From Candidatus Coproplasma avistercoris (lineage in GTDB: Bacteria; Bacillota; Clostridia; Christensenellales; Borkfalkiaceae), in contig DVIK01000003.1 of NCBI GenBank assembly GCA_018711385.1, positions 1 through 37,774 of the forward strand: DNA of 37,774 nucleotides. Direction: 5' to 3'. Position 1 is the first letter of the stretch. Each line of letters starts with the position of its first letter. Under the pieces are notes generated by a model. That model was not told where the DNA came from. It saw only the letters and a list, made by a program, of their open reading frames with translations, and made no database searches. Of this stretch, positions 10,101-29,770 are shown in pieces. Position numbers and translations under genes: made by a program.

Positions 10101-10544
10101 TTACGGCAGGTATTCAATAATTTTCTTTCTTTGCCTTGCGTATTCCAAAGTCTGCGCGGCGCCTCCCCATGAGCGGCGTACGCAGGCAAACAGTACGTCA
10201 GCGTTGTCTATCATCCATTCATTGCGGCGGATGATGGCATATTTAAGCGGTACGCGCTCCAATGGCGGATAGAACGTTTCATTGAAATATTCGTTGAGTA
10301 TGTTTATCCGTTCGAGGAATTCGGGGTAGATATACGGGATCACAAGGCAGTTGCGGATATTAGTGAAGCGTTTTTGCAGGTTCTTGACGCACTCTGCGGC
10401 AAAAAGGTCAAAGTTGCCGCTGCCTCCGTTATAGCAAACGAGCCTTTCGTTTCGTTGCGCATAGCCTTCAAGCAGCTCCGATAAAAGTTTCTCCGATGCC
10501 GACGTTTTTCTGAAATCTCTATGTCCGCAGAATGTTACTGTCAT
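10101..10544 (-). CDS. SLOG-family (DUF1273/YpsA-like) protein
   Basis: MTVTFCGHRDF start, VCYNGGSGNFDLFAAECV, NEWMIDNADVLFACVRRSWGGAAQTLEYARQRKKIIEYLP. Confidence 0.75.
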   Translation of the reverse strand: MTVTFCGHRDFRKTSASEKLLSELLEGYAQRNERLVCYNGGSGNFDLFAAECVKNLQKRFTNIRNCLVIPYIYPEFLERINILNEYFNETFYPPLERVPLKYAIIRRNEWMIDNADVLFACVRRSWGGAAQTLEYARQRKKIIEYLP

Positions 10545-10930: not shown

Positions 10931-10978
10931 AAGAGATAGAAAAAATATTTTATTGGTGGATTCTTTGTGGAGAGCAGC

Positions 10979-11287
10979 ATGACTGTACAACAGAGGATAG
11001 AAGAGTTATTGAAGCAACGCGGCTGGTCTAAATATAAACTTGCAAAAGAGGCGGGCTTTTATCCCGCAACGGTTTACGATTGGTTTAACGATAAGGGCTA
11101 TACGCCTGACAGAAATTCAATAGAGAGTATTTGCCTTGCGTTTGGTATAACTCAGGCGGAATTTTATAGCGGAGTGGACGAGGGTAACCTCGATACAGAG
11201 CAGACGGCGCTGCTCGAGTTGTTTGCGAAGATCCCGAAAGATAAGCGAAAGATCGTTTTCGAGCTTTTGAAAACATTGGCGGATTAA
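10979..11287 (+). CDS. XRE-family HTH regulator
   Basis: IEELLKQRGWSKYKLAKEAGFYPATVYDWFNDKGYTPDRNSIESICLAFGI; GGAG before ATG 10979 (ORF open from 10967). Confidence 0.8.
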   Translation: MTVQQRIEELLKQRGWSKYKLAKEAGFYPATVYDWFNDKGYTPDRNSIESICLAFGITQAEFYSGVDEGNLDTEQTALLELFAKIPKDKRKIVFELLKTLAD

Positions 11288-11564: not shown

Positions 11565-13025
11565 TTATGATAGGGTTTTTATTCCTCCAAGTTGATTCAA
11601 TATTTTTTCGCACTCGGGTTTGAAAATGTTTCCTTTATCTACGAGGATAGGCATCAGCTTTCTGATAAGTTCGGCGTTTGCTTCAATAATCTGTTTTGCT
11701 CTTTTGTAGCAATCGTCAATTATTTTATCGAACTCGTCATTAACTTTATTCAGTTTTTCCCGGGTATATTCAATGTCGTCGTTGCGGCCGCTCGTATACC
11801 TTAATTCCAGTCCCATCAGCCCGTCTCTCGACATGCCCAAAAGGATACAATCCACCGTTGTGAGCAGATAATATGTATTATTGTAAAGTTTTTTCAGTAC
11901 TACTTCCTCGGCGATGTAACCTCCCATGATCGCGCAAATAGCATTAAGATAGTCTGATTTTGTGTAGTAGAAGTTGAAATCTTCTTCTTCGTCGTCATAG
12001 TCATATTCGTCATCGTCATCATCATCATCGTCATAGTTTCTGTCGCGGAAGCCTATGCCGCCATTTCCCGAAGTTTCATCGTCGGAATGAATGTTGAAAT
12101 CAATGCCGTCTTCATCGTCGAAATCATCGTCGTATCGGCTTATCGCCGCATTGAAGTACAAGTTGCAGACTGTATCGTTGCCAAGTCTCAACAGGTAATC
12201 ACCGGAATTCAAGCTCCGTGCCACTATAAAGCAACCTATGTTGCGGCAGGCATTTACCATATCGGCCTGTGTGGGCATCTTTCGCGGTAAATCTTCCGAT
12301 TTGCTTTCAAGTATGCGTTCCTTTATCAGTTTTTCCGAAATAAATCCGTTTTCGTCCGATTGTAAAACGCATTCGTTTACCAGAGTCTCGAGCGCCGCAC
12401 ACGAAAAACCGTTGCACAGTTTTGCAAGTTCTTCCATTGTCATCTCAAACGCGCAACTCGTCTTTCCGGCGTAAAACCTGAGTATCTCCACACGCGAGGG
12501 GTAATCCGGATTGCCGATATGTATTTTTTTGTCGATCCTGCCGGGACGGACGAGGGTAGAGGGCAGATTTTCGTAGTTGTTGCAGGTCGCAACAAAAATG
12601 AAATTTTTATTGCTGTTCATGCCGTCGATAAGGGTGAGAAGTTGCGCCAGAATGGCTTTTGAGTGGTCGGAGTAGTATTCTTCGCTTACGTTAGGCAGCA
12701 CTTTGTCCATTTCGTCAAAGAAAATCATCGTCGGCTTGTTGGATTTTCGTGCACTGTCAAAGGCTTTCTTTATCCTTTTAAGAAGCGAACTTTTATCTCC
12801 CGGATTGCCAAGGTCTATGTTTATCATTTCAAGATTGCATAGACTTGCCATTACTTTTGCAAACAATGTTTTGCCCGTTCCCGTTTCGCCGTAAAAAATT
12901 ATGCCTTTGGGTAGTTTTGCTCCGCGCGCCAAGTACATATCTCTGTTATTTATTATTTCGCAAATCCTTTTAAGTTCCTCCTTTTCCTGCGAGTATCCCG
13001 CTATATCCGTTAATTTGTAATTCAT
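11565..13025 (-). CDS. FtsH-like AAA+ ATPase with degenerate M41 peptidase region and acidic insert
   Basis: Walker A GETGTGKT, Walker B MIFFDEMD, SRH RPGRIDKK, AAA lid; C-terminal GGYIAEEV as in FtsH M41 but RNIGC at the HEAGH position; GGAGGTG RBS. Confidence 0.85.
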   Translation of the reverse strand: MNYKLTDIAGYSQEKEELKRICEIINNRDMYLARGAKLPKGIIFYGETGTGKTLFAKVMASLCNLEMINIDLGNPGDKSSLLKRIKKAFDSARKSNKPTMIFFDEMDKVLPNVSEEYYSDHSKAILAQLLTLIDGMNSNKNFIFVATCNNYENLPSTLVRPGRIDKKIHIGNPDYPSRVEILRFYAGKTSCAFEMTMEELAKLCNGFSCAALETLVNECVLQSDENGFISEKLIKERILESKSEDLPRKMPTQADMVNACRNIGCFIVARSLNSGDYLLRLGNDTVCNLYFNAAISRYDDDFDDEDGIDFNIHSDDETSGNGGIGFRDRNYDDDDDDDDEYDYDDEEEDFNFYYTKSDYLNAICAIMGGYIAEEVVLKKLYNNTYYLLTTVDCILLGMSRDGLMGLELRYTSGRNDDIEYTREKLNKVNDEFDKIIDDCYKRAKQIIEANAELIRKLMPILVDKGNIFKPECEKILNQLGGIKTLS

Positions 13026-13146
13026 GTTTTCACCTCCGTAAATTTTGTTTGTAGTTTCATTTTACACCATCTGCATAATAGTGTAATACCGCAAAATGGT
13101 AAATATTTTTGACCCCTTTTTTATGCTCACGTTCAGCTTAATTTGC

Positions 13147-13175
13147 TTGATTTATGACCCCTTTTAGGGTACAAT
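13147..13175 (+). promoter_or_regulatory. Promoter TTGATT-N17-TACAAT of the WYL-like gene, with GACCCCTTTT in the spacer
   Basis: TTGATT 13147-13152, TACAAT 13170-13175; GACCCCTTTT at 13156-13165 and again at 13111-13120. Confidence 0.6.
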
Positions 13176-13196
13176 ACAATAAACGGAGGGAAATTT

Positions 13197-14189
13197 ATGG
13201 ATGAAAAAATAAAGATCAGCGCGCCAAAATCGGTGTACGAACTTTTAAAAAAGGACTGTGAAGATTTCAAAATAACCAAGCCTGACGGTTCTCCTAACAT
13301 GAATGCGTTTCTGAATGGTATAGTTTCTAATTACTATGAGGAATTTGCCGGCGCGGAAGAAAAATTGCGCGACGAGGTAAGCAAAGCCGTTGGAATAGTT
13401 CCGGACCGCTATCGTGAGTCGGTTCTTTTGGATGTGCTGAAGGTATTCACAAAAAAGCAATCGGATAGCGAAAATAAACAGAGCAAGGTCTTTGCTTTCA
13501 AGCCAACCAGGAACGCGGAAAAGGCGGTAATATACATAGAAAATTTACTGTTGCAAAACGAATCGCTCTCTTCGTATTACAGAAGATTGTTTACTGCATA
13601 TTCTCAGAAGACGAAGAACGAACGGGAAAAAATACTTTTCAAGGAGAATTATTTCCTTTTGGTGAAATCGGTTAAAAAGGGAGTAAAGGTGTGTATTTCT
13701 TTTGCGAACGACAATGTTATAAAAGGTGCATCAGTCTATACTGTATGCGCGGCAAAGGAGGAGCTTTTCAATTATGTGCTTTTCTATAACGGCAAACAGA
13801 ATGTTACCGCGAGGCTTGCTGCGGTAAAAACGGTATCGTTACTCGCCGAAAAAAGCGAGATTCCGGAAGGTAATGCAGATCTGTTCAGGCGACAGGCGGA
13901 GTGTGCGCCGCAGTACCCTATGTATAATACAGACAGAGAGCCTATAAAAGTACGGCTTACAGAAAAGGGTAAAGAGCTGTTTAAAAAAATTTATCTGTAT
14001 CGGCCGACGCCCGTCAGTGTAGAGGGGGATATTTATACGTTTAAATGTTCCGCAAACCAGCTTTTATATTACTTTGAACGCTTCGGCGACAGCGCAATCA
14101 TCCTTTCTCCCAAAAAACTTGGTATTTTTATGCGCAACTACTATTATTTTGCTTATAAAAAGTATAAGTCGCTTTACAGCAGAGATTGA
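13197..14189 (+). CDS. Putative RHH/WYL-domain-like transcriptional regulator
   Basis: N-terminal KISAPKSVYELLKKDCEDF...NMNAFLNGIVSNYYEEF resembles RHH; LFNYVLFYNGKQNVTARLAAVKTVSLL and C-terminal YTFKCSANQLLYYFERFGDSAIILSPKKLGIFMRNYYYFAYKKY resemble WYL and its C-terminal extension. Confidence 0.55.
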   Translation: MDEKIKISAPKSVYELLKKDCEDFKITKPDGSPNMNAFLNGIVSNYYEEFAGAEEKLRDEVSKAVGIVPDRYRESVLLDVLKVFTKKQSDSENKQSKVFAFKPTRNAEKAVIYIENLLLQNESLSSYYRRLFTAYSQKTKNEREKILFKENYFLLVKSVKKGVKVCISFANDNVIKGASVYTVCAAKEELFNYVLFYNGKQNVTARLAAVKTVSLLAEKSEIPEGNADLFRRQAECAPQYPMYNTDREPIKVRLTEKGKELFKKIYLYRPTPVSVEGDIYTFKCSANQLLYYFERFGDSAIILSPKKLGIFMRNYYYFAYKKYKSLYSRD

Positions 14190-14276
14190 AAGAGTATCAG
14201 TCGTTGTATGAGTAAGTAATGCTCATAAAATGGCGTTGCTGATATATATCTCATCAGACTCAGTGTTTGACAAGTA

Positions 14277-14313
14277 AAAACCCGAACCGTTTATTTTTAT
14301 CGGTTCGGGTTTT
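14277..14313 (+). terminator. Perfect 13-bp hairpin upstream of the transposase
   Basis: AAAACCCGAACCG - 11 nt - CGGTTCGGGTTTT. Confidence 0.75.
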
Positions 14314-14347
14314 AAAATGTAAAAAATTATTTAAAAGGAGAAAGACA

Positions 14348-15472
14348 ATGAGGACTTTCACAGAAACTGAGCGCAAAAAGATTTTTGAATTATGGCAAAC
14401 AAAGCAGCCAATAAATCGTATTATCGAGCTTACAGGAGCATCGCGCAGTACGGTGTATCGGATAGTTAAAGGTTATGAATGTAATGGGGGAAGCGACGCT
14501 ATTTCACGAAAATACGTTGCAAAACTTGAAACTAAGGTAAGAAGGCTTGAACAAAAGTTAGAAGTTATCAAGAAGGCAGGGTGTTCGCCAAATGCTCCTT
14601 TGCGGGAAAAATTGGTTGCTCTCGAAACTCTGTATGGAAAGTACAGCGTTCATTTGTTGTGCGAAACGATGGGTGTGCCGAGAGGAACGTTTTATAATCA
14701 CATACTACGAAATAAGCGCGACAATACGTGGTACGCAAAACAGCGCGAAATACTCCGTGTAGAAATAAAGAGAGTGTATGATGAAAGTAATCAGGTGTTT
14801 GGTTCAGGCAAAATTACAGCTGTACTTAAAGAGCGCGGTTACAATACGTGCGAGGAAACTGTACGAAGACTTATGAAGGATATGGGACTTGTGAGTATAA
14901 GGCAGAGGGCAAAAGCTCTATATGAACAAGAGAAAAGGAGGGCACCTAAAAATGTGTTGAACCGGCAATTCACTGTCAAAAGACCAAACAGTGTATGGGT
15001 GAGCGATGTTACATGTTATAAGTTCGGAAATAAGATATTCTATATATGCGCAATTCTTGACCTGTATGCTCGAAAGGTTGTAGGATGCAGGGTGGGGTTG
15101 GGTAACAGCACTCAATTTGTAAAAAGAACATTTAAGGAAGCGTATGAGAATAGAAAACCTGAAAAGTTGCTTTTGCATACAGACAGGGGAAGCAATTACG
15201 CCTCCTATACATTCAATTCGTATTTAAAATCTATTGGCGTAACACATTCCTTTTCGCGGGCGTATGTGCCTTATGATAATTCTGTAATGGAGTCTTTCTT
15301 TTCAAATATGAAGAGGGAGGAGTTGTACAGGCGCAAATACCGTTCGGAAAGGGAAATACATAAAGCCATAACCGATTATGTAAACTTTTATAATGATAAG
15401 CGACCGCATATAAGCAACGGGTATAAAACGCCGACTGTGAAAGAAGAGCTGTATTTTAAAAATGTGTCCTGA
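14348..15472 (+). CDS. IS3-family transposase, single ORF (HTH + rve DDE integrase domain)
   Basis: N-terminal HTH; VWVSDVTCYKFG, LLLHTDRGSNYAS, SVMESFFSNMKREEL, YNDKRPH; ATG 14348 with AAAGGAG. Confidence 0.9.
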   Translation: MRTFTETERKKIFELWQTKQPINRIIELTGASRSTVYRIVKGYECNGGSDAISRKYVAKLETKVRRLEQKLEVIKKAGCSPNAPLREKLVALETLYGKYSVHLLCETMGVPRGTFYNHILRNKRDNTWYAKQREILRVEIKRVYDESNQVFGSGKITAVLKERGYNTCEETVRRLMKDMGLVSIRQRAKALYEQEKRRAPKNVLNRQFTVKRPNSVWVSDVTCYKFGNKIFYICAILDLYARKVVGCRVGLGNSTQFVKRTFKEAYENRKPEKLLLHTDRGSNYASYTFNSYLKSIGVTHSFSRAYVPYDNSVMESFFSNMKREELYRRKYRSEREIHKAITDYVNFYNDKRPHISNGYKTPTVKEELYFKNVS

Positions 15473-15672: not shown

Positions 15673-15748
15673 TTGGAGCTACTGGCCGGATTCGAACCGG
15701 CGACCTGCTGATTACGAATCAGCTGCTCTACCAGCTGAGCCACAGTAG
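15673..15748 (-). tRNA. tRNA-Thr (anticodon CGT)
   Basis: Minus strand GCTACTG...GCTGA-TTCGTAA-TCAGC...GGTTCGAATCC...CAGTAGC-T-CCA; acceptor stem pairs fully. Confidence 0.95.
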
Positions 15749-15938
15749 CGTTGACTTTAATATTATACTATATTCAAGGAAAAATGCAAGCATTTTCCCG
15801 CTTGCTTTAATAACTTTTGCAAATCTTTTTGAACGGCGCTTATGGGCTAAAATTTTGCATGGTTCACCGAAAAAAATTCTCTGTTCGCAGATTCTGCTAC
15901 ACCTGCGTGCTATACTGTGAAAAAACGGAGGTGTTACA

Positions 15939-29446: not shown

Positions 29447-29770
29447 ATGTGTTCAAATTGTAATTCAAACTGCGGCTGCGGCAGTTCCCGCTCCGGGTGC
29501 TGCGGCAGTTCACGTTCTTCCTGCGGCTGCAATTCGTCGCGCAATTCAGGCTGCGGCTGCAACTGGCCCGGGTTGCTGAACCTTTTCGACTGGTTCAGCG
29601 GCTGCAACAGCTGCAATTGCTGTTGGTTCGACGCCTATTACGCCGCCCAGTACGGCCTTTACGGCAACGCTTCCGACTCCTGCCCCAATTGCAGCTCTTC
29701 GTCCGGCACGGGACGTTCTTCCGGCTGCAACGGCTGCAACAGTTGCTGCGGTTGTTCGTGTAACGGCTGA
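29447..29770 (+). CDS. Cysteine-rich 107-aa protein (22 Cys)
   Basis: MCSNCNSNCGCGSSRSGCCGSSRSSCGC...CNGCNSCCGCSCNG; AGGAAA upstream, terminator downstream. Confidence 0.6.
   Translation: MCSNCNSNCGCGSSRSGCCGSSRSSCGCNSSRNSGCGCNWPGLLNLFDWFSGCNSCNCCWFDAYYAAQYGLYGNASDSCPNCSSSSGTGRSSGCNGCNSCCGCSCNG

Follow-up and report, generated by a model that had tools for sequence, protein, structure and literature searches.

FtsH-like proteins that have lost their protease site have been described mainly from chloroplasts. In plants the FtsHi pseudo-proteases are subunits of hetero-complexes (PMC8197885, PMC9020784), and a presumably inactive copy in Prochlorococcus has also been mentioned (PMC8197885). 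MoxR-vWA systems contain an FtsH component with one inactive ATPase domain (PMC7159879). Among the regulators with a WYL domain, RspWYL1, a homodimer whose N-terminus is a ribbon-helix-helix (RHH) and whose WYL domain is an Sm-like barrel, binds single-stranded RNA and boosts Cas13d (PMC6547453); CapW represses a defence operon, with expression going up upon infection (PMC9122588). We analysed a stretch of 37,774 nucleotides from Candidatus Coproplasma avistercoris (contig DVIK01000003.1), in the following called the window, which encodes a member of a soluble bacterial family of FtsH-like proteins with a destroyed zinc-protease site. The gene, here termed pseudo-FtsH, lies divergently to a gene for a regulator of the RspWYL1 family. 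With a probability of roughly 0.6, the two genes form a self-contained, horizontally mobile module made up of a protease-dead AAA+ ATPase and the autoregulating WYL1-type protein that controls it.

The zinc site of pseudo-FtsH is lost. A profile-profile alignment (hhalign, 98.1 %, E=6.6e-13) set ACRNIGCFIVA on AYHEAGHAIVA of canonical FtsH, thus HEAGH was changed to RNIGC by replacement of the first histidine by arginine, of glutamate by asparagine and of the second histidine by cysteine. A HExxH motif was sought elsewhere in the protein, and none was found. The position of the aspartate ligand (SNDL in canonical FtsH) reads YYLL in the window protein, with leucine for aspartate. The preliminary description of this DNA, made from its letters, had claimed the loss of HEAGH and of the aspartate ligand and, as a consequence, of protein cleavage; the alignments bear out the first two and support the third. 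Behind the dead site the M41 fold is kept: Pfam Peptidase_M41 (PF01434) matched residues 352-474 (E=8.5e-9) with profile positions 55-190, that is only with the part after HEXXH, and this part includes GGYIAEEV (residues 368-375). FtsH 2ce7 was the closest solved fold to the AlphaFold model (E about 1e-22), and the Ycf2-FtsHi motor was among the top matches. The M41-type C-terminus after the AAA domain had been read correctly, as had the acidic insert in the M41 region (Table 1), which lies within a span of very low model confidence (residues 290-354, predicted local distance difference test (pLDDT) score below 50).

The ATPase core is intact. Pfam AAA (PF00004) matched residues 42-171 (E=3.9e-27), and the Walker A, Walker B and second region of homology (SRH) motifs are present, as described before, with their key residues invariant in ten homologues. 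The AAA region is about 31-35 % identical to canonical FtsH, and the match to the NCBIfam model FtsH_fam, 169 bits, is far below the cut-off of 600. The reading frame had been placed at its exact coordinates on an unstated strand; it is assigned here to the minus strand, the plus strand being interrupted by stops. The N-terminus opens directly with the AAA domain, and a transmembrane segment is absent, as had been noted: the best 19-residue hydropathy window scores 1.34 versus 3.16 in a canonical FtsH of the genus. In the alignment a shorter stretch of the NPGDKSS type replaces the pore loop FVEMFVGVG of FtsH, which agrees with the earlier remark that the aromatic FVG motif is not evident; the motif is likewise absent from soluble relatives with an intact HEAGH.

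Homologues were compared at ten loci: the window, L022 (same contig as L093, G450:C15), L023 (same contig as L003, G016:C13), L024, L025, L004/L075 (G028), L057 (G355), L058 (G116), L059 (G218) and L060 (G142). An eleventh, in G027, is cut by the contig end. The homologues range down to about 48 % identity, and in all ten the histidine and glutamate positions read R-N, with the following glycine at its canonical place. Ratios of nonsynonymous to synonymous substitution rates (dN/dS, NG86, close members) were 0.05-0.08 for the AAA part, 0.05-0.11 for a segment of 51 residues around the dead site and 0.07-0.27 for the M41 tail; for the WYL1-type partner 0.03-0.07 was obtained. Ten loci, invariant R-N and low dN/dS thus speak against a decayed singleton, an objection that the preliminary description had raised against itself. 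It had also left conservation to be checked in homologues: the R-N pair and the partner gene are kept, the wider neighbourhood differs between loci. At L059 (7519-9090, G218) a hydrophobic, membrane-protein-like sequence takes the place of the M41 tail without a change of frame, due to a fusion, a deletion or an assembly error.

The pairing with the regulator gene is constant. A divergent gene of about 330 codons was present in 10/10 loci, with about 160-260 bp between its start and that of pseudo-FtsH. Pfam recognised WCX in 11 and WYL in 7 of 22 partner homologues, while RHH_1 was weak (2/22, E 0.06); the window partner matched the PADLOC WYL model (2.9e-4). Among solved structures a profile search gave a single convincing relative, WYL1 6oaw, aligned along the entire protein (E=2.7e-16); 6oaw also ranked first when the predicted model, of modest quality, was compared by fold. 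The partner therefore has the three-part architecture of RHH, WYL and C-terminal domain together with full-length homology to RspWYL1. The soluble ATPase with a dead protease, as the locus had been interpreted earlier, is upheld; the constant partner and the shared operators had been overlooked.

Both genes have the intergenic region in common, and two copies of a candidate operator, TG[AC]CCCCTTTT, are located in it, 45 bp apart in the window and 44-45 bp apart wherever both are recognisable. In 569 kb of collected loci every exact 11-base site (20/20) precedes a WYL1-type gene by no more than 250 bp, and all are oriented alike; among them are sites before WYL1 paralogues of only about 30 % identity with no pseudo-FtsH beside them. 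The second copy is enclosed by a promoter-like element of 29 bases, which had a single match in each of five pair-bearing genomes (G000, G016, G450, G028, G142) and no match in four genomes of the genus lacking the pair. In G218, G355 and G116 no such element was present within three mismatches; G218 and G116 retain 11-base sites. A promoter scan alone revealed no clear excess over chance (16 vs 12.4 +/- 3.3), therefore the case for the promoter rests on conservation rather than on consensus scores. Distant RHH-WYL1 paralogues occur in the genus as open reading frames (ORFs) of about 320-345 codons with no pseudo-FtsH neighbour (L067, L069-L074). Several of them adjoin very long ORFs resembling RNA polymerase genes, and in front of many there is a CCCCTTTT site, identical or similar.

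The ancestry of pseudo-FtsH was addressed with a maximum-likelihood tree of the AAA region, with the catalytic columns left out. PF01434 was found in 86/94 genomes of the genus, usually in a membrane FtsH with HEAGH, and some of the genomes also encode soluble FtsH-like proteins of about 425-500 amino acids with intact HEAGH and no transmembrane segment. Membrane FtsH (99/98) and the soluble clade (100/98) were split in the tree, and the proteins with an acidic insert formed one clade (96/94) inside the latter. Direct descent from membrane FtsH is thereby rejected; of the earlier phrase 'derived from FtsH', the FtsH-like ancestry stands, while the protein belongs to a soluble FtsH-like clade and does not come straight from the membrane form. 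From outside inward, the acidic-insert clade branches into proteins with HMLGH (L131, L132), HSVGH (L082) and HQVGH (L130) and the RNxGC clade, with supports of 96/94, 99/97 and 100/96 from HMLGH inward to RNxGC, the last being that of the RNxGC clade. The exact place of the HQVGH protein is not firm (90/63), and L087 is a long branch for which the tree program warns of unsure placement. The HMLGH, HSVGH and HQVGH proteins retain both histidines and an aspartate near the third-ligand position, with the glutamate gone. Because these relatives are nested outside the RNxGC clade, the catalytic glutamate appears to have been lost before the zinc ligands. As two early-branching RNxGC members, L060 and L025, still show the aspartate, the topology suggests the order glutamate, then histidines, then aspartate.

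Other relatives were met in the same survey. L083 (3477-4790), L084 (5318-6586) and L089 (1628-2905) encode soluble FtsH-like proteases with intact HEAGH and no transmembrane segment, and a regulator with winged helix-turn-helix (wHTH), WYL and WCX domains is encoded no more than a few kb from each. L089 also has GmrSD genes, L084 a PD-(D/E)XK-type and a DUF2779 gene. This looks like an undescribed association of a protease with a WYL regulator. At L086 (5039-8330) and L088 (40-3605) soluble FtsH-like proteases occur as tandem pairs, their N-terminal tails rich in Asp. Large FtsH-like proteins of about 950-1000 amino acids (L094, L095, L096, L098, L099) form a separate clade, in which HEAGH is kept in four of five and reads HETGH in L095. 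In the window's own genome (G000, an 85 % complete assembly) the dead protein was the sole M41 match; the canonical FtsH, for which no M41 match was obtained, is probably missing from the assembly.

The distribution of the pair is sporadic. The partner was found at full strength in 4/94 genomes of the genus and 6/396 of the order, and no close copy was present outside the order among 388 genomes of the class. The AAA tree of pseudo-FtsH is discordant with the taxonomy: although it belongs to the genus of the window, L004 clusters with members of another family (97/87), which points to horizontal transfer. The pair has apparently been moved horizontally. In the window it sits between a polysaccharide deacetylase gene and tRNA-Thr (15674-15749); in the same block of G448 (L134) the pair is absent, with a helix-turn-helix (HTH) gene and a small ORF instead, and G015 (L135) has other genes there. 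The gene content at this site next to a tRNA gene thus varies, and the 'accessory segment' of the preliminary description is supported. The syntenic relative without the pair and the differing neighbours also speak for mobility. No record of the phage collection and no plasmid record searched carries the pair, and cargo of these elements was rejected. A defence island was rejected as well, the pair's recognisable neighbours being ordinary; those that Pfam matched belong to metabolism or transport. Between the deacetylase gene and pseudo-FtsH the window encodes a SLOG-type (YpsA-like) protein (10101-10544, minus strand) and an HTH regulator (10967-11287, plus strand). Both genes are absent from L022 and L023; in L138 a SLOG gene of 61 % identity is found close to the deacetylase. 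An IS3-like transposase gene (14267-15472, plus strand) between the WYL1 gene and tRNA-Thr recurs in L023 (90 %) and not in L022. Further downstream (29447-29770, plus strand) is a small Cys/Gly/Ser-rich ORF of 107 amino acids, MCSNCNSNCGCGSSRSGCC...

Table 1 Features of the pseudo-FtsH/WYL1 locus, in positions of the window
Feature	Position	Strand	Remarks
pseudo-FtsH, soluble AAA+ ATPase with protease-dead M41 C-terminus, 486 amino acids	11565..13025	-	
C-terminal half of M41 domain (PF01434 profile 55-190)	11604..11972	-	
acidic, predicted disordered insert in M41 active-site region, residues 299-352	11970..12131	-	28 Asp/Glu of 54
dead zinc site ACRNIGCFIVA, residues 259-269, replacing AYHEAGHAIVA	12219..12251	-	R261 and N262 invariant in 10 homologues
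SRH/arginine fingers RPGRIDKK, residues 160-167	12525..12548	-	R160, G162, R163, D165 invariant in 10 homologues
Walker B MIFFDEMD, residues 100-107	12705..12728	-	D104, E105, D107 invariant in 10 homologues
region in place of FtsH pore loop 1, residues 71-89, DLGNPGDKSSLLKRIKKAF, without aromatic FVG	12759..12815	-	alignment
Walker A GETGTGKT, residues 46-53	12867..12890	-	G46, G49, G51, K52, T53 invariant in 10 homologues
divergent intergenic control region common to both genes	13026..13196	.	
candidate operator 1, TGACCCCTTTT, pseudo-FtsH side	13110..13120	+	
promoter-like TTGATT-17-TACAAT of WYL1 gene, enclosing operator 2	13147..13175	+	
candidate operator 2, TGACCCCTTTT, within spacer of WYL1 promoter	13155..13165	+	
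RHH-WYL-WCX regulator, 330 amino acids, RspWYL1 family	13197..14189	+	divergent from pseudo-FtsH in all ten loci

We propose that pseudo-FtsH is a soluble ATPase on an FtsH-like chassis of AAA and M41 fold that has given up proteolysis. It would probably still hydrolyse ATP and form an ATP-driven ring, and may bind or remodel a client rather than degrade it. A dimer of the WYL1-type protein would bind directly to both TG[AC]CCCCTTTT operators and thereby control both divergent genes, be it by repression or activation. The regulator could be switched by a ligand bound to its WYL domain, for which analogy suggests single-stranded nucleic acid or a nucleotide, and the level of the ATPase would be set in this way. 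It is a tentative thought that Clostridia hold here a previously undescribed mobile immune or stress module, composed of an RHH-WYL autoregulator sensing RNA or DNA and an ex-protease AAA+ machine for binding or remodelling. Several points weigh against the proposed two-gene module. The evidence is computational, and the models are of moderate quality only (mean pLDDT 70.7 for pseudo-FtsH, 62.5 for the partner). The nominal P of 6e-40 for the operator is inflated, the loci being related, so that the 20/20 is what counts; WYL1-type genes from outside the order were searched and showed no such site upstream, and at L025 no copy turned up even with two mismatches allowed. The HMLGH, HSVGH and HQVGH intermediates have no WYL1 partner, therefore that part of the family works without one. 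Finally, the aromatic pore loop is missing, which makes classic threading unlikely.

Among the other explanations, a role in defence against phages or mobile elements survives best, although it is rather doubtful. The WYL1-type protein would sense infection as single-stranded nucleic acid and release or activate the ATPase, and the latter would then stop either the invader or the cell itself. Control of defence systems is known for WYL regulators (CapW PMC9122588; BrxR PMC9122601; RspWYL1 PMC6547453), and the sporadic, mobile distribution of the pair is in line with such a role. It is made plausible by the three soluble active relatives adjoining wHTH-WYL-WCX regulators; GmrSD or PD-(D/E)XK genes accompany two of the three. 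However, the Pfam-matched neighbours of the pair itself are those of metabolism or transport, no PADLOC model fits beyond the AAA similarity to IetA, and neither phage nor plasmid records contain the pair.

Unlikely is an action of pseudo-FtsH on its own regulator as an anti-repressor, with the insert mimicking nucleic acid and/or the ATPase stripping the basic WYL1-type protein from its operators. The constant pairing would be explained, and the charges are complementary: about -26 for the insert and +14.5 for the partner (isoelectric point (pI) 9.3). However, the N-terminal 65 residues of the partner are acidic themselves (pI 4.85), and the HMLGH, HSVGH and HQVGH intermediates carry the acidic insert too. 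Since these are partnerless, the insert did not arise for the WYL1 partner, and its interpretation as a device made for this partner is weakened. It is also improbable that pseudo-FtsH co-assembles with membrane FtsH as a dominant-negative or structural subunit and tunes it, like chloroplast FtsHi. Hetero-complexes of plant FtsHi (PMC8197885, PMC9020784) are a precedent, and an M41 FtsH is present as well in most genomes of the genus, but pseudo-FtsH is soluble, only about 31-35 % identical in its AAA region, of a different clade and devoid of the aromatic pore loop. That pseudo-FtsH is a decaying copy of an active protease, as its missing zinc site could suggest, has a negligible chance: homologues down to about 48 % identity, the invariant R-N, the conserved partner and operators and a dN/dS far under 1 even in the dead-site segment rule out a decayed pseudogene.

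The family of the window protein opens the question of what task an FtsH-type ring performs once its protease is gone, and its living intermediates reveal the order in which catalytic and zinc residues were lost. RspWYL1-type proteins have hitherto been studied as Cas13d helpers; with a candidate DNA operator their role as transcription regulators becomes directly testable.

In the open-licence literature on FtsH pseudoproteases, on WYL with FtsH-like proteins and on FtsH in conflict systems nothing like the pair was found, which is weak evidence. The AAA domain resembles that of IetA of the IetAS defence system (PADLOC E=9.5e-22), but pseudo-FtsH has an M41-type C-terminus and no protease gene beside it: in place of an adjacent subtilisin-like serine protease the window flanks encode SLOG-type, HTH and WYL1-type proteins and an IS3-like transposase. 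With CapW and BrxR the locus shares a WYL-WCX switch beside the genes under its presumed control (PMC9122588, PMC9122601). The N-terminus of the partner is however RHH instead of wHTH, and no CBASS or BREX genes were noticed beside the pair. RspWYL1 (6oaw), the accessory protein of type VI-D CRISPR-Cas13d, has RHH, WYL and C-terminal domain in common with the partner, with homology over the full length, whereas the partner is about 60 amino acids shorter and divergently coupled to pseudo-FtsH and the TG[AC]CCCCTTTT sites. No Cas13d gene was noticed among the neighbours of the pair, in which no Cas13d-specific search was made. FtsH (MEROPS M41) and pseudo-FtsH have the same layout, an AAA domain that contains Walker A/B and SRH and, behind it, an M41-fold C-terminus in which the GG..AEE helix and the C-terminal helices are kept; they differ in HEXXH, aspartate ligand, membrane anchor and FVG pore loop, which pseudo-FtsH lacks, and in the acidic insert in the active-site region. 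Alike in kind are plant FtsHi and the Ycf2-FtsHi motor (8xku, 8xqw), which kept the FtsH chassis though HEXXH is destroyed and which appeared among the fold matches. As in FtsHi, a kept M41 fold, a lost catalytic site and selection come together in pseudo-FtsH; FtsHi is membrane-bound and chloroplastic, whereas pseudo-FtsH is soluble and bacterial, carries an acidic insert and is paired with a WYL1-type gene.
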